Source of the DNA: a bacterium
GTDB taxonomy: Bacteria; AUK180
Reading direction: 5' to 3'
Assembly (NCBI GenBank): GCA_023144005.1
Contig: JAGLGN010000030.1
Location: 23,813-87,812 of the forward strand
DNA length: 64,000 nt
The notes below the pieces were generated by a model. It had not been told where the DNA came from and made no database searches. It saw nothing but the letters and a program-made list of their open reading frames with translations. The stretch's first letter is position 1. Each line of letters begins with the position of its first letter. Both the position numbers and the translations under genes were made by a program. Shown in pieces: positions 14,422 through 46,051 of the stretch.

Positions 14422-16331
14422 AAGGAACACGAAGAAATCTGATATATCTCATTTTCATAATTGTCATGTTCGCGGTCTTCATCGTATTTTCTCTCAGAAC
14501 CTTATCTGAGCTGCAGGGAGAGAGCCGGATCACTACCGTTTACATAGTATTTCAGCTTCTAGCCCTCTTCGTTTTCATCTTCTCATTTCTATTTGTTGCT
14601 CTGAAGGGCGCATTGTACTTTTTTAATGAAAAAAGCAAAAAATCATTTAAAGACAGAAGCATACGCTCTAAATTCTTTGTAATAATCTTAATGGTCGTTA
14701 TATTCATCTCCGTTCCTCAAATAATCTTTAATGTTCTATTCACAAATAATCTTCTGAATCAATGGGGAGGGAAATTGTTTCGAGATACTATCGATGCGGG
14801 TGTTGAGTATTCCAGGTATGTGATATCACAGAAAGTCCGCACGGCTCACATCTGGATCGATAAATTGCCCGAAGAGGATCTCAAAGAGCTGGAGATCAGA
14901 AAGAACGCGGGAGAAGAGGAATTAAAAGCGGGTGAAAGCCTTTACCTTGAGGACCGCATACTCTTCAATAAGGGCGGTATTGTCTGGGAGATCACTCTTT
15001 CTGAGGAGGAGAAGAATTTCTTATACAATGTAAATGAAACGCATAACCGATTTTTCAAGGATTCACTTTTTCGCAAAAAGGCCTCTCAGATCTTTGCGAT
15101 AATCTCCATCTTCATCATCTCTGTGTTTATTTTTGTGCTTTCCTTCTGGATCGCGGGATTTCTGGGGAAGGACCTTATTCTGCCCATTGAAAATCTCATG
15201 TTGGGCACGGAAGAGCTCAAAAGGGGAAATTACCGTTTCAAGATACAGAAAACTTCTGAAGACGAGCTTGGGGTCTTGATAGATAATTTCAATAAGATGT
15301 CATCAATAATTCAAACCGCGAGGGACGAGCAGAGCAAGTTAAATGAAAATCTGCAGACGGAGCGGGATTTCCAGAATGCCATCCTTACTTCTGTCACAAC
15401 CGGTATCGGCATTATTTCCGCTAAAGGGGACATGATCTTCAAGAATCCTTCTTTGGAAGCAATTCTGCAGGAATTGGAATCGCCGGAAGAACTTGAGAAG
15501 TCCATTTCCAAGATGCTTTCCGACAAGGATGAAACCCTGCTCAAGAAACGGATAAGGATAGGAGATATTTTTCTTTCGATCAATATCTTGAATTTTCGAT
15601 CTGGCAAGTCGGAGAAACTGCTTATAGTCGATGATTTCACCGAGATACTCAATCTTCGCCGCGCCGAGATATGGCAGGCAATGGCGAGGAAATTAATGCA
15701 TGAACTGAAGAACCCGCTCACTCCAATATCGCTGGCCATTGACCGTTTGCGCCGAAAGCGCTCACAGGATCCGGATGGTTTTGAGAAGATCTTTGACGAG
15801 AATACCGCTATTATCAAGGAAGAAATAGACAGATTATCGAAACTGCTGAAACACTTCAATGATTTCGCGAAACTTCCCGCGCCTCATCTCAAGAAAATGT
15901 CGCTTGACAAATTATTGGGAGATCTTATTAAACTCTATTCGGATAAGGAAGACAAAAATGTCTCTATTCACCTCCGTACAGAGGCTGATGATGCGATGAT
16001 AGAAGGTGATCAGATCCTTCTTAAGCAGCTTTTTGTGAATCTGCTCAATAATTCCCTTGATTCCTTTAAGGGGGGAAAGGGGGCGATCAATATTATCATC
16101 AAGGGCGATGAGAGAACTGTGTATGTTGAATTTTCTGATAATGGCATAGGAATAGCTAAAAAAGACCTTGATAAGATCTGGGATATATATTTTTCAGGAA
16201 AAAAATCGGGCACCGGCCTTGGCTTAACAATGGTGCAAAGGATCATTGAAGATCATAGCGGCAGGATCAGTGTAAGATCATCGCTGAAGACCGGCACCGT
16301 ATTCGATATCGAATTCAGGAGAAGGCAGTGA
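14418..16331 (+). CDS. NtrY-like sensor histidine kinase (TM, HAMP, PAS-like, HisKA, HATPase)
   Basis: 'LMHELKNPLTPISLAIDRLRRK', 'LLNNSLDSF', 'DNGIGIAKKDLDKIWDIYFSGKKSGTGLGL'. Confidence 0.9.
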   Translation: MKGTRRNLIYLIFIIVMFAVFIVFSLRTLSELQGESRITTVYIVFQLLALFVFIFSFLFVALKGALYFFNEKSKKSFKDRSIRSKFFVIILMVVIFISVPQIIFNVLFTNNLLNQWGGKLFRDTIDAGVEYSRYVISQKVRTAHIWIDKLPEEDLKELEIRKNAGEEELKAGESLYLEDRILFNKGGIVWEITLSEEEKNFLYNVNETHNRFFKDSLFRKKASQIFAIISIFIISVFIFVLSFWIAGFLGKDLILPIENLMLGTEELKRGNYRFKIQKTSEDELGVLIDNFNKMSSIIQTARDEQSKLNENLQTERDFQNAILTSVTTGIGIISAKGDMIFKNPSLEAILQELESPEELEKSISKMLSDKDETLLKKRIRIGDIFLSINILNFRSGKSEKLLIVDDFTEILNLRRAEIWQAMARKLMHELKNPLTPISLAIDRLRRKRSQDPDGFEKIFDENTAIIKEEIDRLSKLLKHFNDFAKLPAPHLKKMSLDKLLGDLIKLYSDKEDKNVSIHLRTEADDAMIEGDQILLKQLFVNLLNNSLDSFKGGKGAINIIIKGDERTVYVEFSDNGIGIAKKDLDKIWDIYFSGKKSGTGLGLTMVQRIIEDHSGRISVRSSLKTGTVFDIEFRRRQ

Positions 16332-16981
16332 AATGCGCCCTTTGCGGCAAGAAAATGAAGATAAGATCTCCGTTTTGCCCTTCATGCAGCTCAAGATTGC
16401 TGCGTTCTCCGATATCCGCCTGTGAAAAATGTCATTGCGCGCTTTCTGGAAGAAGGAGGCTGTGTGAACAATGCAGGGGGCGGAAGAATTACTTCGACGG
16501 ATTTTACAATCTCGGTTATTACGCCAAGGGAATGGGAGAAATAATCAGGAAGGTAAAATTCAGAGAGGAGCGAAAACTTGCTTTGGGATTGGGACGAATG
16601 ATGGGGAAAATTCTAAAAAGAGAAAATAGAGAATACACTTATATAATTCCCATACCAATGTCACCGAAACGCTTTCATGAAAGGGGATTCAATCAGGCAT
16701 ATGAGATCGCGAAAGGAGTAGCGAAAACCATGGGAGTGAAGCTCCGGGCAGATCTTCTGGAGAAGCGTGACACGATCGCCTTTGAGAAATTGAATAGAGT
16801 TCAGCGCCGAAGGGAAGTAAAGAAAGCCTTCAAGAGCACAAAGAAGATAGACAAGGCCAAGGGAGCTTCTATCCTGCTTGTGGATGATGTATTTACGACG
16901 GGAACTACGGTAAATGCTGTGGCGCATCTTCTAAAAACGGGTGGCGCCTTAATAGTTGACGCTGGAGTGATCGCAAGATGA
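16328..16981 (+). CDS. ComF family protein (zinc ribbon + phosphoribosyltransferase)
   Basis: Paired Cys motifs CALCGKK/CPSC/CEKCHC/CEQC and PRPP motif 'ILLVDDVFTTGTTVNAVA'. Confidence 0.9.
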   Translation: MKCALCGKKMKIRSPFCPSCSSRLLRSPISACEKCHCALSGRRRLCEQCRGRKNYFDGFYNLGYYAKGMGEIIRKVKFREERKLALGLGRMMGKILKRENREYTYIIPIPMSPKRFHERGFNQAYEIAKGVAKTMGVKLRADLLEKRDTIAFEKLNRVQRRREVKKAFKSTKKIDKAKGASILLVDDVFTTGTTVNAVAHLLKTGGALIVDAGVIAR

Positions 16982-35347: not shown

Positions 35348-35376
35348 TTGAAATATTGGACATTATGTGGTAAAAT
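35348..35376 (+). promoter_or_regulatory. Sigma70-like promoter of the HhH/pseudohelicase cluster
   Basis: TTGAAA - 17 bp - TAAAAT; RBS 'aggtgg' before ATG 35402. Confidence 0.55.
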
Positions 35377-35401
35377 AATACAGATTTAGGTGGATCAATA
35401 A

Positions 35402-36475
35402 ATGAGCAGAAAACAGACCCTTATCGTCTTATTTGAAATTTTACTTCTTATTCTAGGTATATTCCTCTATTTCGCCGGTGATTCTCTCTTCTCAGGCAAG
35501 TTCTCTGAAGAAGAAGAGATACTGAGAAAGGAGATTCTCGGACTTTCAGAAAAAATAGATGTGTACGAGGACTCTGACAGCAGAGAACTTTTCACCAAGA
35601 ACTTCCTTGAGATCCGTAAAAGTTACAATCAACTCAGTATCACATTTGTTGAAAAGGACTATACAAATGCTCTTTCCGCATACACGGAGTTCGTTCAAGA
35701 ATTAGAATCACTAAAAAGTGAAGTGGACTCCCATTATGCCGACTTGAAGGCAAAAAGAGAGCAGGCGGCTGTGGAGGACGAACTTGCGCAGCTGAAGAAG
35801 GATCAGGAGATGAAAATCGCCCAGGCGGTTTCCAAGGCAAAAAAGGAACAGGCGGTGGCTGTCGCTGCTGCGAAGAAAGAAGCGAAAACTACCGAGACAA
35901 CTCCCTCTGGATCGTATACATATGCTCCTTTGAAGAAGGTATCTTCCGAACCTGCTGCTGCCGAACCGGTTAAGGCCGCTGCCACGCAAGCCGTAAGTGC
36001 GGATAATTCTGGAAAAGTTGACATAAATAACGCATCCATCGCGGAATTAGACAAATTACCGCGCATCGGGCCTGTTAAGGCGAATGCGATTTACGATTAT
36101 CGGATGGCAAACGGCGGTTTTACTTCAATTGAGGACATCGTTAGTGTAAGCGGTATCGGAGAGAAGACATATGCCTTATTGAAACCCCTGATATACTGCG
36201 GCAAATTTGGAACGGCTTCTTCCCCCGCGGTAAGCACCAGTTCTCCCGCGGCATCTCAAACATCCGCCGCGGACAAGGTCAATATAAACACCGCGGATCA
36301 GACGCAATTAGAGACATTACCCCGAATCGGCCCCGCGACCGCCCGTAATATCATTAATTACCGTGATGAGAACGGGCCCTTTAAAACATATGAGGATATC
36401 ATGAATGTTCCCCGGATAGGCGAGAAGACCTTGGCGAACATTAAACCATTTATAAAATTAGGAGATGGCGAATGA
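35402..36475 (+). CDS. Membrane-anchored protein with two ComEA-like helix-hairpin-helix modules
   Basis: N-terminal TM, coiled-coil/Ala-Lys linker, 'VDINNASIAELDKLPRIGPVKANAIYDYR' and 'VNINTADQTQLETLPRIGPATARNIINYRDENGPF'. Confidence 0.85.
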   Translation: MSRKQTLIVLFEILLLILGIFLYFAGDSLFSGKFSEEEEILRKEILGLSEKIDVYEDSDSRELFTKNFLEIRKSYNQLSITFVEKDYTNALSAYTEFVQELESLKSEVDSHYADLKAKREQAAVEDELAQLKKDQEMKIAQAVSKAKKEQAVAVAAAKKEAKTTETTPSGSYTYAPLKKVSSEPAAAEPVKAAATQAVSADNSGKVDINNASIAELDKLPRIGPVKANAIYDYRMANGGFTSIEDIVSVSGIGEKTYALLKPLIYCGKFGTASSPAVSTSSPAASQTSAADKVNINTADQTQLETLPRIGPATARNIINYRDENGPFKTYEDIMNVPRIGEKTLANIKPFIKLGDGE

Positions 36476-38442
36476 ACATAAGCAACCTGATCGAGAAACT
36501 CCCTGAAAAAGAACAGAAGTATTTCATCTATCTTATCAAAGACCTCAAGGATGAAGAAAAGGAAAGATTTATCAGGGAAGTGTATGAACTTTCGGAAGTT
36601 GAACAGGATCTTATCCTGAAGATGCTTCTGAGGATGTCACCGGAACAGATCACGGGCATTATTTATAATTCCAATGATGAGGGGCCTTTGATGATACTTG
36701 GAGACGAGATATCGATGAAGCGTACCCTTCTGGCCAATAGAATAGCGTATCATCTGATCACCCGCAATATCAAGGTGGATGAGGTTCTGGGGTTATGCTT
36801 TTCGAATCTAAATGCCGGAAGTATAATCGACATGATCGGTAATTCTCTGCCGGAAAAGATGATCTTCCGTATGGATATCGATACTTTCAATTCGATCTCA
36901 TTGCAGATACTGAGAGATTATGTTCTGGGAAGCCTGAATATCGAGAAGATCGGTTATAAAACATCTCCGAAATTCAGGGTATTAGTGGCAAGAGAGCAAT
37001 TACTTCTTTTGAAAAGGGCTTTGGAGGAATCGAAGATACCTTCCTCAGAGCTTGGCTTCTCACAGCTTGTCGGCAGCATCATAGGATTGAAAAGAGAATT
37101 GGTCTCGCCCGAAGACGCGGTGAAGCAGGCAAAGGATGACGAGGCGGTAAAGGTGGCGAAGGTATATACGATTTATCAGGACCTTCTGATAAAGAACAAT
37201 ACCTGTGATATCAATGATCTTGTTCGGCTTACGATCCAATTGTTCAATACATCTTCAGAGGTTCTCGAATACTACAGAGGCAAATACAAGATGATCTTTA
37301 TTGACGACTATCATTATTCGAGTTTTGCCCAATACCAGATGATCAAGGTACTGACCGAGGGCAAGAAGAACCTGACCTTTACATCAGGGCATAAGATAAA
37401 CACATATAAATGGTCCGCGAACGCGGTAAATTATTCCAATGAATTTGTAAAAGATTTTAAAGGCAAAACGGTTGAATATGATAGAAGCGCGATAGATGTT
37501 GAGGAGATCCTCAAGCGTGAGATCTTTATTGAGACCGGCGAGAGCGTGGAAGAGATAGAGCCTGCCGAGACAGCTGACTTCAACGAATATATTGAAGGAG
37601 AGGCCCTGATCAGGCTTGAAGAGGAAGATGAGGTAAATGAATCTTCACTTGTTATCAACTCCATCATCAGAAAAACTCAGGAAGGCACTCCTTTCGGTAA
37701 GATCGCTATCGTGGTGAGGACTAACCGCCAGATCGAAGTCCTGAAGAAAGTATTGAAAGGCGCGAATATACCTTTCTTTATTACAGGAGATAGATTGCTT
37801 GCCCGTGATGAGATCAATGATGTTATGTCATTGCTGAAAACAGTTTATTATGTTTCGGAGATGAATAGCAAGAAAAAACTTACTCCTGATGAACTGCATG
37901 ACCTGAACGAATCGCTTAAAGCCATTTTCCTGAACATTATTCCGCTTCAATTGGAATTCAACACATATGTTCAATTAGAGAAAATGGCATTAGAGGCGCA
38001 AACGGATATATATTCAATACTACTGGATGACGAGAAGGAGACCGACAGATTCAAGACACGGTTCCCGCTTAAGGACAGAGAGATCGTAGGGTTTTTCAAA
38101 GACCTTATTCAGACGGTATCCAAAGAGATCGAAGAGTTCGATGTCGCCATTTTGATAGAGCTTCTCACCAATGAGACCAAATTCCTTGATTCTCTGGTCG
38201 CGGAGGGGAAAACCATAGGTAGAATAAAGGCCGAAAACATCAAATACCTCTACCTTTATGCTACTGAGTTCATGAAGAACAATAGCAAAAAAGGCAAGGC
38301 CGGACTGAAGGATTTTGTCATGGATATCGTGGCGAAGAAGAAAAAGCAAGACGAAGAATTGAAATTACATGAAGATGATGTTAAGGTTATCACTCTTAAT
38401 GCCATTGAAGATATTTCTTATCAGATCTATTATCTGATCTAG
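36472..38442 (+). CDS. UvrD/PcrA-like SF1 protein with degenerate motifs, ending at the motif V-like region (probable pseudo-helicase)
   Basis: 'MSPEQITGIIYNSNDEGPLMILGDEISMKRTLLANRIAYHLI' aligns to the UvrD Q/Walker A region without GKT; 'MIFIDDYHYSSFAQYQMI' at motif II; 'AIVVRTNRQIEVLKKVLKGANIPFFITG' at motif IV; ends 'VKVITLNAIEDISYQIYYLI*'. Confidence 0.75.
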   Translation: MNISNLIEKLPEKEQKYFIYLIKDLKDEEKERFIREVYELSEVEQDLILKMLLRMSPEQITGIIYNSNDEGPLMILGDEISMKRTLLANRIAYHLITRNIKVDEVLGLCFSNLNAGSIIDMIGNSLPEKMIFRMDIDTFNSISLQILRDYVLGSLNIEKIGYKTSPKFRVLVAREQLLLLKRALEESKIPSSELGFSQLVGSIIGLKRELVSPEDAVKQAKDDEAVKVAKVYTIYQDLLIKNNTCDINDLVRLTIQLFNTSSEVLEYYRGKYKMIFIDDYHYSSFAQYQMIKVLTEGKKNLTFTSGHKINTYKWSANAVNYSNEFVKDFKGKTVEYDRSAIDVEEILKREIFIETGESVEEIEPAETADFNEYIEGEALIRLEEEDEVNESSLVINSIIRKTQEGTPFGKIAIVVRTNRQIEVLKKVLKGANIPFFITGDRLLARDEINDVMSLLKTVYYVSEMNSKKKLTPDELHDLNESLKAIFLNIIPLQLEFNTYVQLEKMALEAQTDIYSILLDDEKETDRFKTRFPLKDREIVGFFKDLIQTVSKEIEEFDVAILIELLTNETKFLDSLVAEGKTIGRIKAENIKYLYLYATEFMKNNSKKGKAGLKDFVMDIVAKKKKQDEELKLHEDDVKVITLNAIEDISYQIYYLI

Positions 38443-38452
38443 GAGGACGATT

Positions 38453-38680
38453 ATGGGAAAGTATGACAAGTACAAAAAAACGACAGAATCCACTAACCTG
38501 GATAAATACAAGAAGCAGAGCGGGAAGAGTTTTGACGAGATCGATAAAAAACTGGATGCTCAGCCTGAAACTGCTGCTGCGCAGGAGAATAAAGCATCAA
38601 TGGGTGGAAATGTGCTAATAGTTGTTCTCGGTATAGCCACTGCCATTGTCTGGGTTCTGGCGATCGGAAAACTGATCTGA
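38453..38680 (+). CDS. Small protein with C-terminal TM helix
   Basis: 'NVLIVVLGIATAIVWVLAIGKLI'; RBS 'taggagga'. Confidence 0.6.
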   Translation: MGKYDKYKKTTESTNLDKYKKQSGKSFDEIDKKLDAQPETAAAQENKASMGGNVLIVVLGIATAIVWVLAIGKLI

Positions 38681-38687
38681 TAGACCG

Positions 38688-40775
38688 GTGATCATGAAAA
38701 AATTCATTTTATCTTTATTACTTCTTGTATGCATATTTGCGTTTGCCGGCGAGTTGAAGATAGCTTTCATCAATGTTAACCAGGGCGACGCAATGCTTAT
38801 TTCAACTCCTGAAGGCAAGCATTATATTGTCGATGGGGGACAGCCCGCATATTATGACCCCGTAAAGGATATTTATTACTCGAGATTTGACGCGGGAAGA
38901 GATGTGATCCTGCCGTACCTCAAATCGCAGGGCATCGAGAAATTGGATGGTATCCTCGCGACGCATCCTGATGCCGACCATATAGGCGGACTGGTACATT
39001 TGCTTAAGAATATGCCCGTTGATACCGTTTATTACACCGGCAGGCTCCACACCTCCAATATTTTTCAGGTATTTTTAACCCTCTCGAAGGAAAAGGGCGC
39101 CAAATATATCGAAGTGAGGGACGGTGATATATTGAAATGGTCTCCTGCAATGCTGGTAAATGTTCTTGCCCCGACCGATAAAGAGATGGATTATGCCAAG
39201 AATAATAACAATACCTCTATTGTGCTCTTTATCAAATATGGGGAAACTTCGTTCATTCTCTCGGGAGATGCGGAGAAAGAGCAGGAGGACAGAATGTCTT
39301 CGGACTACGGGCAGAATCTGAAGGCGGATCTTCTTAAATTCGGACATCATGGTTCAAAATCTTCTTCGATGACGCGCTATCTGAATCTGATCGCCCCCAA
39401 ATACGGCATAATATCCTGCGGGAAGAACAATAAATTCGGTTTTCCCCATAAGGATGCCCTTGATAGATATTATCATGCAAATTCTGATATGCTCATAGGG
39501 CGTACGGATTATAACGGACATATCGTTGCCGTCAGTGACGGCAGTAAGATCAGTTTTGAAGTCCAGAAGGGAGAGATGTACACCATGGAAGAGGTTTTTG
39601 CACAGGAAAACCTTACTATTCCCGGAAAAGCAGCGAAAACCACTACGGTGCAGAAATCCGGAAATAATGACAGCCCTCTCGTGTCATCCGGTGACCTGGT
39701 GAATATCAATACTGCTTCACAGAGTCAGCTTGAGACATTGCACAGGGTTGGTCCCGCGACCGCCCGCAATATTATAAATTACCGCGATGAGAACGGGCCT
39801 TTCAAAAGGATAGAGGATATTCAAAATGTTCCGAGGATCGGACCAAAGACATTTGAGAATCTGAAAGCCCATATTACCGTCGGTGACAGCGCCGCGGCAC
39901 CCTCCAGCGGAACACAGAAAAAAACCACAACCACTGTTTCTTCAGGGGCTCTGGTGAATATCAATACTGCTTCACAGAGTCAGCTTGAGACATTGCACAG
40001 GGTTGGTCCCGCGACCGCCCGCAATATTATAAATTACCGCAATGAGAACGGGCCTTTCAAAAAGATAGAGGATATTCAAAATGTTCCGAGGATCGGGCCG
40101 AAAACATTTGAGAATCTGAAAGCCAATATCACAGTAGGCGACGGCGCCTCTACCTCTTCTCCTGAAGCGAAGAAGAAAGTTGAAGCAAGTGTTTCATCCG
40201 ATGAGCTTGTGAATATCAATACTGCTTCTCAGAGCCGGCTTGAGACATTACACAGGGTAGGGCCGAAAACCGCACAGAATATCATTAATTATCGTAATGA
40301 GAACGGGCCGTTCAAAAGGATAGAGGATATTCAAAATGTCCCGAGGATCGGACCGAAGACATTTGAGAATCTGATGCCGTATATTACGGTCGGGCAGATC
40401 AGTTCAAAGAAAACCGACACCATTGAAGTGCAGGAAAGCGATGAATCCGAGGATGTCTTGAAAGAGGAAGCGATCGAGAAGGAGAAGTCAGACAACACCG
40501 TGGAAATAGAAGAAGAAAAGGAAGCAGAGCCCATCAAAGAAATTGCAAAGGTCGGCGGCTGTAATGCTGCTCTCACTATAAGTCCTGTGAATATCAACAC
40601 CGCTTCGGAGAAAGAATTGGATGCTATTCCCAGCGTCTGCCGAAATGCCGCTGTTAAGATATTTAATTACAGGCAGAAAAACGGCAAATTCAAGGACCTA
40701 TCCGAAGTACAGAAAGCGGCTTCCATCTCGGATCGTAATTTCAAAAAGATCAAGAAGTACATTATATTGGAGTGA
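38688..40775 (+). CDS. Secreted ComEC-like metallo-beta-lactamase domain fused to four ComEA-like HhH modules
   Basis: Signal peptide; 'HPDADHIGG', 'LKFGHHGSKSSS'; HhH units at 39696, 39951, 40206 and a divergent one at 40584. Confidence 0.9.
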   Translation: MIMKKFILSLLLLVCIFAFAGELKIAFINVNQGDAMLISTPEGKHYIVDGGQPAYYDPVKDIYYSRFDAGRDVILPYLKSQGIEKLDGILATHPDADHIGGLVHLLKNMPVDTVYYTGRLHTSNIFQVFLTLSKEKGAKYIEVRDGDILKWSPAMLVNVLAPTDKEMDYAKNNNNTSIVLFIKYGETSFILSGDAEKEQEDRMSSDYGQNLKADLLKFGHHGSKSSSMTRYLNLIAPKYGIISCGKNNKFGFPHKDALDRYYHANSDMLIGRTDYNGHIVAVSDGSKISFEVQKGEMYTMEEVFAQENLTIPGKAAKTTTVQKSGNNDSPLVSSGDLVNINTASQSQLETLHRVGPATARNIINYRDENGPFKRIEDIQNVPRIGPKTFENLKAHITVGDSAAAPSSGTQKKTTTTVSSGALVNINTASQSQLETLHRVGPATARNIINYRNENGPFKKIEDIQNVPRIGPKTFENLKANITVGDGASTSSPEAKKKVEASVSSDELVNINTASQSRLETLHRVGPKTAQNIINYRNENGPFKRIEDIQNVPRIGPKTFENLMPYITVGQISSKKTDTIEVQESDESEDVLKEEAIEKEKSDNTVEIEEEKEAEPIKEIAKVGGCNAALTISPVNINTASEKELDAIPSVCRNAAVKIFNYRQKNGKFKDLSEVQKAASISDRNFKKIKKYIILE
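39696..40397 (+). repeat. Three in-frame 64-codon HhH repeats, nearly identical at DNA level
   Basis: Units 39696-39887, 39951-40142, 40206-40397, spaced exactly 255 bp. Confidence 0.95.
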
Positions 40776-40777
40776 GC

Positions 40778-41782
40778 ATGACTCAAATTGCCAAGTTGAA
40801 AAATGAAGCATTGGAATTATTGGAGAAAGCCTCAACCCTTGAGGAGATCGAAGAGTTAAAGATCCGCTTTCTGAGTAGAAAGGGAGAATTGGCCGGCCTC
40901 TTTTCAGAAATTCCAAAATTGGACCCCGCCGAAAGAAAGCAATTCGGACAGGGGATAAATGAATTAAAAATTCTTTTAACAGAGGGCTTGGAAGAGAAGG
41001 AAGCTACCCTGAAGCGAAGCAAAAGGGATCTGCCTCCGGTAGATATCACCCGCGACCCGTTTCCTTTCAGAAAGGGATCTGTTCATCCTCTAAGCGCCAC
41101 TTATATCGAGATAATCAATATTTTTAAATACCTTGGATTTATCGTTGTCGAAGGTCCTGAAATAGAAGAGGATTTCTATAATTTCGAAGGGCTTAATTTC
41201 CCTCCCGACCATCCAGCTAGGGATGAGCAGGATTCGTTCTTTATGCAGAATGGCAAACTCCTGCGTACACATACTTCGCCTGTTCAGGTGCGCGTGATGG
41301 AATCACAGGAGCCGCCTCTTGCTGTCGTATCCCCGGGAAAGTGCTATCGAAGAGATACGATAGATGCTTCGCACTCATCCATGTTCAATCAATTGGAAGG
41401 ATTCCTCGTGGACGAGAATATCTCTGTGGCGGAGCTCAAGGGCACTATCAAATATTTTATTAAAGAACTCTTCGGAGAAAAGAAGACACGCTTTCGGCCG
41501 CATTATTTCCCCTTCACAGAACCCTCAATGGAGGTTGATGTAGAATGTGTTTTCTGCGGCGGTAAGGGCTGTAATGTATGTAAAAAGACCGGCTGGCTCG
41601 AGATAATGGGTGCCGGAATGATAGACCCGAATGTTTTTATTAAGGCAGGCCTTGATCCTGTTAAGTATTCCGGATTTGCTTTTGGAATGGGTATTGAGAG
41701 GATCGCAATGCTCCGATATGACATAAATGATATGCGTCTCTTCTTCGAGAATGACATCGAATTCCTCGATCAGTTCAGGTAA
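40778..41782 (+). CDS. pheS: Phenylalanyl-tRNA synthetase alpha subunit
   Basis: 'SRKGELAGLF', 'FEGLNFPPDHPARDEQDSFF', 'GFAFGMGIERIAMLRY'. Confidence 0.95.
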   Translation: MTQIAKLKNEALELLEKASTLEEIEELKIRFLSRKGELAGLFSEIPKLDPAERKQFGQGINELKILLTEGLEEKEATLKRSKRDLPPVDITRDPFPFRKGSVHPLSATYIEIINIFKYLGFIVVEGPEIEEDFYNFEGLNFPPDHPARDEQDSFFMQNGKLLRTHTSPVQVRVMESQEPPLAVVSPGKCYRRDTIDASHSSMFNQLEGFLVDENISVAELKGTIKYFIKELFGEKKTRFRPHYFPFTEPSMEVDVECVFCGGKGCNVCKKTGWLEIMGAGMIDPNVFIKAGLDPVKYSGFAFGMGIERIAMLRYDINDMRLFFENDIEFLDQFR

Positions 41783-41785
41783 TAT

Positions 41786-44134
41786 ATGAAATACAGTTTA
41801 AATTGGATCAAAAAATATATTGACATTGAGCTCTCCGAAGACGAACTCTATAAGAAACTTACAATGAGCGGCTCCGAAGTAGAGGGCTGCCATATGCTGC
41901 TTGAGGACATTTCGGATATTGTGATCTCAAAGATAAATAAGATAGAGCCCCACCCGCAGGCAGATAAACTTCAAATATGCACCGTCACCGACGGGAAAGA
42001 GACTTATTCGGTCGTTTGCGGAGCGACTAATATACAAAAAGGTCAGATAGTCCCATTGGCAAAGATCGGAGCTTCTCTACCCGGGAATATGAAGATAAAA
42101 AGATCCAAGATCAGAGGAATTGAATCTGAGGGGATGCTCTGCTCGACAAAGGAATTGGGGCTGGGTACCGACCATGAAGGCATTTTCATCCTCAAAAGTG
42201 ATCTTAAAAAGGGAAAGAGTTTCAAAGATTATTTCGACGATACGGTATTTGAGATCGAAATTACTCCAAACCGTCCCGATCTTCTGTCACATTACGGCCT
42301 CTCCAGAGAGATAGCCGCTATCACCGGCAAAAGAGCGAGGCCTCTGGAAATTGTTGATTCTATTGTAGGAAATACCGAATCTCCGATAAGGGTCGAGATA
42401 AGGGACCTTGACGCATGTCCCAAATACCTTCTTCTTTATGTTAAGAATATTGAGAATCCTTCATCACCACAAGATATCAAGAATGCCTTGATAGCTATGG
42501 ATACAAATCCGAAAAGCCTTTTGGTGGACCTTTCGAATTATAATCTTTTTGAAACCGGACATCCCACACATTTCTTTGACGCGGATAAGATACAAGGCAA
42601 TATCATCGTGCGTTTTGCGAGAAAGGGCGAGAAGACAATTACCCTTGACGGGGAAGAGAGGGTCTTGCAATCTACGGACCTCGTAATTGCTGATGAGAAG
42701 AAGATACTCGCCATAGCGGGAGTGATCGGCTGCGCTAACAGTGAAGTAAGCGACAGCACGAAGAATATTGCTATCGAGAGCGCTGTTTTTAAACCTGCAT
42801 TGATCAGAAAGACCAAGAATCGTCTTGGAATAAAATCAGATGCCGCATACCGATATGAAAGGGGAGTGGATATCAATGCTCCTGAGACTTCATTGAAGCG
42901 GATAATGAAGCATTTCAGGGAATATACAACCTTCGAAGCGAACTCCAATGTGATAGATGTTTCAGCCCCCGTTCCGGCTGTCAGGGATATCGTATTAAAG
43001 GAGCAGACCATAAAGAGCATACTCGGTGTTTCGCTGGAGAGCAGTGAGATAACTAACATCCTTTTACGTCTGGGGTTCAAGATAGAAAAACTCCTCGAGT
43101 CATCAATGAAGGTTACCGTTCCGACATTCAGATATCATGATATTGAAAGGGAGATCGATCTGGTAGAAGAGGTCGGCAGGATATATTCTTTTGAACGCAT
43201 ACCCGCCGCCCGCCCGTATATTCGCGGACCCCTTGTACTCAATAAATACAGGGATTTCAAGGATGACCTGAAACATGTGATTGCCGGAAGGGGATTTCAT
43301 GAAACTGTTACACTTACAGTATCCGAAGACAAATTGTATCAGTCTTACGGGTATCAGGAAGATATGCTCCAAATAACCAATCCATTGAATATAAGTCAGA
43401 ATGTTTTTGCGCCGCTCATATTCCCCAGATTGATAAATGTACTTATCAGAAACCTTAAATACCGGCCAGAGCAGCTCGGATTCTTTGAGATCGGCAATGT
43501 TTTCTCAGGCGAGGAAAAAGAGCGCATATCCATATTGATGTACGGAAAAAGATGGGGAAATAACTGGATCACCGGCAGCGAAGAAAAGATCGCAGGCCTC
43601 TTTGACCTGAAAGGTGAATTATCCGCGATATTCAATTATTTGGACATTAAAGACAAGATCGAGTATCAGAATGTTGATATGCCGTATTTCGTACCCGGCA
43701 GATCCGGCGAGATCCTTCTTGATGGTGCGCATATCGGTTGGCTGGGACAGGTAGAGCCCGATAATATCCCTTCAAAGCGTATCAAATACCCTGTGCTTTC
43801 GGCAGAATTCGATCTTAAAGCGCTTTATAGCGATGAGATAATTACTTATGAACACTTTTCCATGTTCCCTGAGATAGAAAGGGATCTGGCAGTCGTTTTT
43901 CCTAATCAACCGGTCAATGCCGAGGTGATTTCAGCGATCAGCTCCGCCGCGGGAGAAATGCTCACAAGTATTGAACTGAAGGATGTTTATAAATTGAAAA
44001 CCAAGGCATTTTCGATGATGTACCGGCTCACATTCCAATCCGGGAAGAAAACCCTGAAGGATAAGCAGGTAGATTACTTCATGACTCAGATAATTAAAAG
44101 GATAGAGGGGGATTTTGATGCCAAACTCAGATAG
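41786..44134 (+). CDS. pheT: Phenylalanyl-tRNA synthetase beta subunit
   Basis: 'MKYSLNWIKKYIDI', tRNA-binding domain 'HPQADKLQICTV', C-terminal FDX-ACB. Confidence 0.96.
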   Translation: MKYSLNWIKKYIDIELSEDELYKKLTMSGSEVEGCHMLLEDISDIVISKINKIEPHPQADKLQICTVTDGKETYSVVCGATNIQKGQIVPLAKIGASLPGNMKIKRSKIRGIESEGMLCSTKELGLGTDHEGIFILKSDLKKGKSFKDYFDDTVFEIEITPNRPDLLSHYGLSREIAAITGKRARPLEIVDSIVGNTESPIRVEIRDLDACPKYLLLYVKNIENPSSPQDIKNALIAMDTNPKSLLVDLSNYNLFETGHPTHFFDADKIQGNIIVRFARKGEKTITLDGEERVLQSTDLVIADEKKILAIAGVIGCANSEVSDSTKNIAIESAVFKPALIRKTKNRLGIKSDAAYRYERGVDINAPETSLKRIMKHFREYTTFEANSNVIDVSAPVPAVRDIVLKEQTIKSILGVSLESSEITNILLRLGFKIEKLLESSMKVTVPTFRYHDIEREIDLVEEVGRIYSFERIPAARPYIRGPLVLNKYRDFKDDLKHVIAGRGFHETVTLTVSEDKLYQSYGYQEDMLQITNPLNISQNVFAPLIFPRLINVLIRNLKYRPEQLGFFEIGNVFSGEEKERISILMYGKRWGNNWITGSEEKIAGLFDLKGELSAIFNYLDIKDKIEYQNVDMPYFVPGRSGEILLDGAHIGWLGQVEPDNIPSKRIKYPVLSAEFDLKALYSDEIITYEHFSMFPEIERDLAVVFPNQPVNAEVISAISSAAGEMLTSIELKDVYKLKTKAFSMMYRLTFQSGKKTLKDKQVDYFMTQIIKRIEGDFDAKLR

Positions 44135-44318
44135 ATCTGAAATGGAGATAGAGATCGCCGAACTTGTAAAGAATCTCTATAAGTATTTTAAAAAGGTCGA
44201 AAAACTCAAAATAAGTCATATTGAAATGAAAGACGATCTGAAAGGGATCAGAGATGAATTAGTGGAGATCAGGGATCAGATCTCCGAATACAGGAAGATC
44301 GAAGATGCAAAAAATTAG
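44118..44318 (+). CDS. Small coiled-coil protein between pheT and zapA
   Basis: Overlaps the pheT end; heptad-like composition. Confidence 0.5.
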   Translation: MPNSDRSEMEIEIAELVKNLYKYFKKVEKLKISHIEMKDDLKGIRDELVEIRDQISEYRKIEDAKN

Positions 44319-44610
44319 AATAAACATCGGGGGCGAGCAGTTTACATTAGAGACTGATACACCTGAAAAGGTCAAGAATATAGAAAAATTCATACACGAA
44401 AAGATCGAGAACGCTTCTAAGGCGACCGGCCTGAACGACACCAGGAAGAATCTTACCTTTGCATTTCTTTCTGTTGTAGTCGAGATGTGGGACAATGTTA
44501 AAGAGACCTTTGGTGTGGATGATGGTCAGGAAACTGCCAAGTACAGGATAGAAGTACTGAATACGAAGATAAAAGAGAAGATAGAGGAGTTAAATGATGG
44601 ATTGGATTAG
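44305..44610 (+). CDS. zapA: Cell division protein ZapA-like
   Basis: 'IRINIGGEQFTLETDTPEKVKNIEKFIHEKIE'; pheT-zapA neighbourhood. Confidence 0.8.
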   Translation: MQKIRINIGGEQFTLETDTPEKVKNIEKFIHEKIENASKATGLNDTRKNLTFAFLSVVVEMWDNVKETFGVDDGQETAKYRIEVLNTKIKEKIEELNDGLD

Positions 44611-46051
44611 TTCAAAGAAAATAGACACCTTCAGGACCTGCGGATACCGGTATCATGAGATGTATTTGAATAAGAGCAGGGAGAAGGGCAAGTGGGAGCC
44701 GAATTCAAATTATCAGAACCTCGAGAAGAATATTAAGAAGGGATTTGAAGAGAGGTCCAAGATATTTCGCGGCAGGATCCCCGCCCTCGAATACGGCCTG
44801 GATTTCACCCGCCCGGATAAATTTAATGAGGAGGCGATAAAGTATTGTGAAGAGAAATTCAATGAATTCTTCGAGAACAATAAGATCGCGAAGTTCGAAA
44901 ACAGGTCCAAACCTGCATTTTCCCGATATGACTCTAATTACGGCTTCTTTTCACCTGTATCGTTCACAGCGGTTCTAAATGGAGTCAGCACCGCGTTTTA
45001 TGTCAATATGAGCGGTTCCGTAAAGAGTGCCGAAAACCTTCCGTGGGATACCGAGTACATCATCAATTGCTGGATACTTTCCAGAGAGCTGAAAGATATA
45101 AAAGGTATTGCGTTCATTTATCCCTTCTCAGGTGAGATATTTTCGGCTGAGATCACCCGTGAGCATGTTGATGCCGGGTTAAGCGCGGCACAGAAATTTC
45201 TGCACGATCTGTCAGTTTCAGACAAAAAATCCCGGCGCAATCCTTTTTGTGACTGGTGTGATTTTCAAGGGGAATGCCCTGCATGGAAGGATTATCCAAT
45301 GACGATGAAGAAGGAAGACCGTCGCCAGCTGTTTCGGCTCTCATATTCGAAGCTAGATGTATACAAGCGCTGCCCCTTCCTTTTTGAAAAGATATATGTG
45401 AAAAAGATCGCTCAGAAGCCCCGTGATTTCTTTTCTGTGGGAAGCACGATCCATAGCGTAATGGAAGAATTAGAGACAATGGATACTCCGCCGCCGATGG
45501 AGGAGATCAGACAGCTCTATAATAAGATGTGGCTTTCAGCGGGATTCTCAACAAAGGAAGATGAAGATAGGGTTAAAGAGGAGACATGGGCGTGGTTCAA
45601 GGAATATCTGGAGAAAATAGCGTTAAATCCTTTTATAAAGGCAGATAAAATAGAGTTGTATTTTCAATTCCCCATCAAAGGCAAATTGGTAGTGAATGGT
45701 TTTATCGACCGTATCGACAAATTGGAAAACGGTAAATATGAGATAATCGATTACAAGACAGAAACATCAATGCGAACACAAGAAGATGTTGATGAGGATA
45801 TGCAGCTGACCGCATATTTCTGGGCATGTTCCAAGCTGGGATACGATGTTGAGAAAATGAGCCTGCATTTCAACAGATTTCAAAAGAATATATCCACCAC
45901 AAGAACCTCTGAGGATATCGAGAAATTCGAAAATGAAATACTTGAATGGTATTCGAAGATAGAGAATGAGACCGAATACAAACCGTCAGAAAATAAGTAT
46001 TGCGACAATTGCGACTTCAGACCGGAGTGTCCGATCTTCGCTGATAAATAA
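44594..46051 (+). CDS. Tandem PD-(D/E)XK (RecB/Cas4/AddB-type) protein with two 4-Cys modules
   Basis: C-module 'VGSTIHSVMEE', 'GFIDRIDKLENGKYEIIDYKTE', 'MQLTAYFWAC', C + 'YCDNCDFRPECPIF'; N-module 'DTFRTCGYRYHEMYL' + 'CDWCDFQGECPAW'. Confidence 0.85.
   Translation: MMDWISSKKIDTFRTCGYRYHEMYLNKSREKGKWEPNSNYQNLEKNIKKGFEERSKIFRGRIPALEYGLDFTRPDKFNEEAIKYCEEKFNEFFENNKIAKFENRSKPAFSRYDSNYGFFSPVSFTAVLNGVSTAFYVNMSGSVKSAENLPWDTEYIINCWILSRELKDIKGIAFIYPFSGEIFSAEITREHVDAGLSAAQKFLHDLSVSDKKSRRNPFCDWCDFQGECPAWKDYPMTMKKEDRRQLFRLSYSKLDVYKRCPFLFEKIYVKKIAQKPRDFFSVGSTIHSVMEELETMDTPPPMEEIRQLYNKMWLSAGFSTKEDEDRVKEETWAWFKEYLEKIALNPFIKADKIELYFQFPIKGKLVVNGFIDRIDKLENGKYEIIDYKTETSMRTQEDVDEDMQLTAYFWACSKLGYDVEKMSLHFNRFQKNISTTRTSEDIEKFENEILEWYSKIENETEYKPSENKYCDNCDFRPECPIFADK

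Follow-up and report, generated by a model that had tools for sequence, protein, structure and literature searches.

A stand-alone ComEC-type metallo-β-lactamase accompanies nuclease-dead ComEC proteins and may belong to a split DNA-uptake machine

The ComEC proteins of B. subtilis, M. thermoacetica, and M. glycerini carry a carboxyl-terminal nuclease domain of the metallo-β-lactamase (MBL) family, with motifs HxDxDH, GD, and HHGS, on the exported side. Of the metal ligands mutated in the M. glycerini domain, the majority (H598, D602, H603, and D700) leave it virtually inactive when changed, and D600A brings an approximately 5-fold loss (PMC12455585). Both in vitro nuclease activity of ComEC and transformation depend on the corresponding ligands (PMC12455585, PMC8579336). 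About half of bacterial ComEC proteins lack a recognisable nuclease domain, and removal of the non-transforming strand there has been called an open question (PMC8579336). Streptococcus pneumoniae provides a precedent: the carboxyl-terminal domain of its ComEC is partly degenerate (ligands absent), and a separate nuclease, EndA, degrades the strand (PMC8579336, PMC12455585).

The window analysed here by purely computational means, a 64,000-nucleotide stretch of bacterial contig JAGLGN010000030.1 (positions 23,813 to 87,812; assembly GCA_023144005.1), encodes relatives of the ComEC nuclease, of ComEA, and of the SF1A helicase PcrA in a single cluster (Table 1). All four open reading frames of the original prediction are present at their coordinates, and the tight packing that it described holds: the first two genes overlap at ATGA, and 10 nt separate pseudo-UvrD from TM75. 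Pfam bears out its domain reading as well: two HHH_3 modules (E 3e-45), UvrD-helicase (1.5e-31), Lactamase_B (7e-16), and four HHH_3 modules (1.8e-86). The promoter that it had placed upstream is there, with an extended-10-like form, but promoter-like sites in this region are about as frequent as in shuffled sequence (12 found, 11.3 expected). The original prediction covered four genes; the run continues gapless through pheS, pheT, a coiled-coil frame, and zapA to a PD-(D/E)XK nuclease gene.

Table 1. Features of the cluster, its surroundings, and one further gene of the window
Feature	Position	Strand	Description
Candidate promoter	35348-35376	+	TTGAAA-17-TAAAAT; TG before -10 (extended-10-like)
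HhH2	35402-36475	+	357 aa; membrane anchor at the N terminus, a coiled region, and a pair of ComEA-like HhH modules (36017-36202, 36278-36463)
pseudo-UvrD	36472-38442	+	656 aa; SF1A fold of the PcrA kind that has lost the ATPase motifs and has no motif VI
TM75	38453-38680	+	75 aa; tail-anchored small protein, DKYKK motifs
MBL-HhH4	38688-40775	+	695 aa from GTG 38688, 693 aa from ATG 38694 (the more likely start); signal peptide; ComEC-CTD-like MBL (motif II 38964-38981, GD 39264-39269, HHGS 39345-39356); four HhH modules (starting at 39699, 39954, 40209, 40587)
pheS and pheT	40772-44134	+	Co-directional; pheS start overlaps MBL stop
Coiled-coil ORF (44115-44318) and zapA (44305-44610)	44115-44610	+	Both kept in G002 and G003
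PDDEXK_1/Cas4-like nuclease	44594-46051	+	Tandem PD-(D/E)XK; two CxxC...C motifs; conserved end of run after zapA
ComF-family/GntX-like phosphoribosyltransferase gene	16328-16981		TIGR00201, below cut-off

The closest solved relatives of the MBL domain are ComEC nuclease domains (PDB 9ic4, E 5e-44; 30bt, 1e-42); Pce reaches only 1e-11. A residue-level alignment with the M. glycerini domain (9ic4) shows that the protein retains HxDxDH, GD, HHGS, and FPH, including the residues that match the M. glycerini metal ligands, so the doubt attached to these ligands in the original prediction falls away. Across seven stand-alone proteins the ligand motifs are intact, with two exceptions: one protein is cut by a contig end (G006), and one has FPN for FPH (G005). 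MBL-HhH4 can thus be described as a predicted ComEC-type nuclease. What distinguishes it from the ComEC domain is its placement on its own polypeptide, with a signal peptide and four ComEA-like HhH modules but, as had been proposed, no channel (PF03772 is absent; TIGR00361 scores 152.7 against a cut-off of 190). The first three HhH modules (39699-40394) are nearly identical and module number varies among relatives, which suggests recent duplication. A second exported ComEC-like MBL (593-719 aa), with an intact HxHxDH, a long carboxyl-terminal part, and a sorting-signal-like carboxyl terminus, is encoded in four genomes of the family (G000, G001, G002, and G004; L068:3061-5142, L069, L070, and L071).

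The original prediction took the cluster for a candidate undescribed system and asked whether a full ComEC exists elsewhere. One does: a different contig of the same genome encodes a ComEC of 966 aa. The cluster is no free-standing system without ComEC, and its MBL looks like the nuclease that this ComEC lacks, provided in trans. Pfam recognises the DUF4131 and channel domains of this ComEC but not its MBL domain. The carboxyl-terminal domain nevertheless aligns with MBL in six genomes of the window's class. In these, motif II, THPDADHIGG, has become TDYSQDNNSA, TDNSVDNSSA, TDYSTDNFSA, TDLSDENASA, TNLNKENTSG, or TNLSRENISG, and HHGS has given way to other residues. The best match to an AF2 model of the domain (mean pLDDT 79) is nevertheless the 9ic4 crystal structure of a ComEC nuclease (TM 0.79 on target, E 3e-11). 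With motifs lost and fold kept, the domain is a pseudo-nuclease. Motif II is missing from all 17 available carboxyl-terminal domains of this kind of ComEC, here termed type D, whose channel domains form a single clade (100/100); its sister is the ComEC of G199 (94/76).

The genome also contains DprA, a PilT-family (type IV pilus) ATPase, and a ComF-like gene, consistent with transformation. Directly upstream of the type-D ComEC gene lie two conserved exported proteins (L028:6440-9906 in G000:C6; also L060, L061, and L063). The first (492 aa) is outer-membrane-barrel-like, with two carboxyl-terminal HhH modules; the second (663 aa) has a weak HhH match and a barrel-like tail. Both may contribute to the outer-membrane section of the path by which DNA is taken up.

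The distribution of the two proteins was surveyed in 290 genomes that are at least 90% complete. A type-D profile, most of whose seed sequences came from genomes already seen to encode a stand-alone MBL, matched ComEC in 14 genomes from nine families (E 1e-100 or better; the next match, at 7.5e-88, is partial). Stand-alone MBLs (E 5e-30 or better), judged as such by open-frame length with the DNA checked for a subset, occur in all 14 type-D genomes (13 with intact motif II) and in 23 of 275 others. The association holds by genome (Fisher p 3e-14), by family (9/9 versus 20/216, p 3e-9), and with the window's own family set aside and only intact motif II counted (7/8 families, p 1e-6), although type D is one clade, so its families are not independent and these p-values are optimistic. 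Five ordinary ComEC proteins that a strict motif search had labelled dead (G026, G037, G038, G062, and G168) were left out of the dead count, as they vary only at the third motif position. Alanine there slows the M. glycerini domain only about 5-fold (PMC12455585).

Operons of unrelated lineages place these genes side by side. In G035 a dead ComEC is followed by HhH2, an anchored MBL, and an HhH protein; G118 and G083 have dead ComEC, HhH2, and MBL; G210, G163, and G024 have HhH-MBL pairs. The HhH2 and MBL of the window are therefore genes kept beside ComEC elsewhere; in the window, pseudo-UvrD and TM75 set the two apart. A related solution appears in G199 and G275 (L191, G199:C39; L212, G275:C14), where an intact MBL gene of its own comes immediately after a channel-only ComEC; these ComECs have no carboxyl-terminal domain, whereas type D retains a pseudo-domain. 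A further locus (L200, G097:C2) holds two stand-alone MBLs, five HhH proteins, and one ComEC within about 9 kb.

These findings favour a split competence machine, in which an exported MBL-HhH nuclease would act in trans on a pseudo-nuclease ComEC. We hold this explanation to be somewhat probable. Several observations count against it. ComEC and MBL genes are unlinked in the window's class and non-adjacent in its family. A dead MBL lies near ComEC in G024, G078, and G204, which have intact copies elsewhere (a dead nearest MBL is recorded for families f20 and f74), and in G072, which has the order HhH, MBL, ComEC, the MBL lacks its motif II region. A single common ancestor of all type-D partner MBLs finds no support in the MBL tree, where the window's class forms its own clade (100/99) and is not united with the other partners; either recruitment of partners happened repeatedly or the tree lacks resolution. 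The window's lineage is uncultured, and we know of no competence in it.

Some of the same observations would suit a general periplasmic or surface DNase, serving nutrient scavenging or extracellular DNA turnover uncoupled from ComEC, with HhH2 concentrating DNA. A protein with a signal peptide, an intact site, and modules that bind DNA has no need of ComEC, the family has its second exported MBL, and the MBL and ComEC genes are unlinked in the class. However, such a DNase would leave unexplained why stand-alone MBLs track dead-domain ComECs, why ComEC-HhH-MBL operons exist elsewhere, and why pseudo-UvrD is conserved, and we judge it unlikely.

The original prediction could be checked by gene order in other genomes, and here it fares well: HhH2, pseudo-UvrD, TM75, and MBL are arranged identically throughout the family's five genomes (the window's and four others). 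In G001 and G004 the contigs stop inside the MBL gene; in G002 and G003 the order continues as pheS, pheT, coil, zapA, nuclease. In G005, from another family of the class, TM75 is followed by MBL-HhH3 and then pheS, which brings MBL-pheS linkage to four genomes (with G000, G002, and G003) and extends the cluster into the pheS-pheT-zapA-nuclease run. G006, from the same family as G005, has MBL, a contig-broken pseudo-UvrD (39%), and an HhH2-like gene; the contig edge beside the latter was considered as encoding the start of pseudo-UvrD, but the frame tried did not support this. No pseudo-UvrD was found in G005, whose genome is 80% complete.

This fixed order bears on the choice between uptake and defence that the original prediction had left open. 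Its central notion, an envelope set of DNA-handling proteins, is supported, and uptake is favoured because competence genes are present and MBL and HhH relatives occur in ComEC operons elsewhere. An envelope barrier that degrades invading DNA, with pseudo-UvrD as sensor and the downstream PD-(D/E)XK nuclease perhaps as cytoplasmic arm, would draw on that nuclease gene and on the MBL and UvrD-like proteins of anti-phage systems (Avs1a, Lmu, and Gabija, with weak PADLOC and NCBIfam matches). Yet the scores fall far under curated cut-offs (Avs1a, 47.6 versus 420; 6A-MBL, 39.8 versus 220), PADLOC defence models yield generic domain matches only, and partner genes of Avs1, Lmu, 6A-MBL, and Gabija were not found in the conserved neighbourhood. 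Unlike mobile defence islands, the cluster has a fixed order in the family and is tied to pheS across the class. We give the barrier little credence.

If the cluster instead belongs to a split competence machine, its remaining proteins are candidate parts of it. HhH2 resembles ComEA, which is also membrane-anchored with two HhH_3 modules: its tandem modules stand behind an anchor, as read from sequence. It differs in having a long coiled region and no SLBB domain match, and it scores below the threshold for full-length ComEA (TIGR01259, 146.2 versus 152.35). Orthologues in the four other family genomes are 44-98% identical.

TM75 resembles a membrane anchor that has become detached from the MBL. 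A pattern written after seeing the sequences (F/Y-[DES]-x-[YF]-[KR]-[KR] near the amino terminus, then a TM segment) occurs in nine of 4865 distinct open reading frames from the loci retrieved. Six of these are TM75 homologues; in the other three, it lies in the amino-terminal tail of a stand-alone MBL (G035, G024, and G163, all type-D genomes). The G005 TM75 (36% identity, E 5e-13), which directly precedes its MBL, is an out-of-sample case. The reading as a split-off anchor rests on this rare motif, shared with type-D MBL anchor tails, and on the G005 protein.

The UvrD-like protein was predicted to be degenerate, and alignment to PcrA (1pjr, E 2e-68) bears this out. Homology to PcrA, UvrD, and Rep is detectable over residues 57-459 and the motif V region, but the P-loop glycines, the catalytic Glu, the motif III Gln, and motif VI are gone. 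The P-loop GAGSGKT has become DEISxKR (Walker A, GxGxGKT to GDEISxKR), DExx reads IDDYH or IDAYH, and the motif III Gln is replaced; the protein ends at a degenerate motif V, hence the missing motif VI (Arg). By sequence, this is no working helicase. Its AF2 model has low confidence (pLDDT 64), so only a family-level fold match, to PcrA/UvrD/Rep, is used. The motif III aromatic pair is kept as YxW in four of five family members and as FxW in the fifth. In PcrA these residues stack on single-stranded DNA, and DNA binding without ATP hydrolysis is therefore plausible.

Pseudo-UvrD is also the most conserved member of the four-gene set: identity to the G002 protein is 72%, compared with 62% for pheS and 53% for MBL, and dN/dS between two congeners is 0.021, compared with 0.12-0.14 for the other three. 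It is confirmed only within the window's class; in type-D genomes outside the class none was recognised, the matches there resembling ordinary UvrD. This absence and the slower evolution would suit a view of the genes as unrelated housekeeping neighbours, in which MBL-HhH and HhH2 act in transformation and pseudo-UvrD and TM75 are passengers with other functions (DNA repair or replication, for example) co-transcribed with pheST. This is quite improbable given that pseudo-UvrD, whose start overlaps HhH2, separates the latter from TM75-MBL in an order fixed across five genomes.

A model for the split competence machine would then run as follows. The cluster would represent the outer half, now detached, of a machine for natural transformation. 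The channel of that machine is ComEC, whose carboxyl-terminal MBL domain retains its fold without the metal site. HhH2 would be the ComEA-like receptor for incoming DNA. The exported MBL-HhH would supply the missing activity in trans: its HhH modules would hold incoming DNA in the periplasm, while its Mn-type MBL site would degrade the non-transported strand next to ComEC. TM75 probably keeps the MBL, or a partner, at the inner membrane, and pseudo-UvrD may be an ATP-independent DNA-binding or adaptor protein on the cytoplasmic, receiving side, where it would handle or sense single-stranded DNA. Of this model, sequence and fold show the domain set, the intact MBL site, the dead ComEC site, the constant gene order, and the co-occurrence; nuclease activity, joint action with ComEC, degradation of the strand, and what TM75 and pseudo-UvrD do are inferred. 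The cluster is best filed as a variant of the ComEC uptake machine. The logic is that of S. pneumoniae, except that EndA is an unrelated nuclease, whereas the trans nuclease here would be a ComEC-type MBL with HhH modules. A bolder version, which we consider doubtful, posits an ancient pseudo-nuclease ComEC clade obligatorily paired with a trans, HhH-equipped MBL on a detachable anchor; the window's class would then have added a catalytically dead UvrD, which takes over the single strand in the cytoplasm as a substitute for a ComFA-type motor. A literature search, though not exhaustive, found no trans-acting or stand-alone ComEC-type MBL with HhH modules, and no UvrD-type pseudohelicase in competence.

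A stand-alone ComEC-type nuclease that tracks dead-domain ComECs offers a concrete and testable answer, for one large clade, to the question of how the non-transforming strand is removed. It suggests a possible route by which bacteria with nuclease-dead channels still process incoming DNA. The small anchor protein and the pseudo-helicase become candidates for new components of DNA import, through which much horizontal gene transfer takes place; and the obligate trans-nuclease and dead UvrD, if true, would constitute a new architecture of bacterial DNA import.
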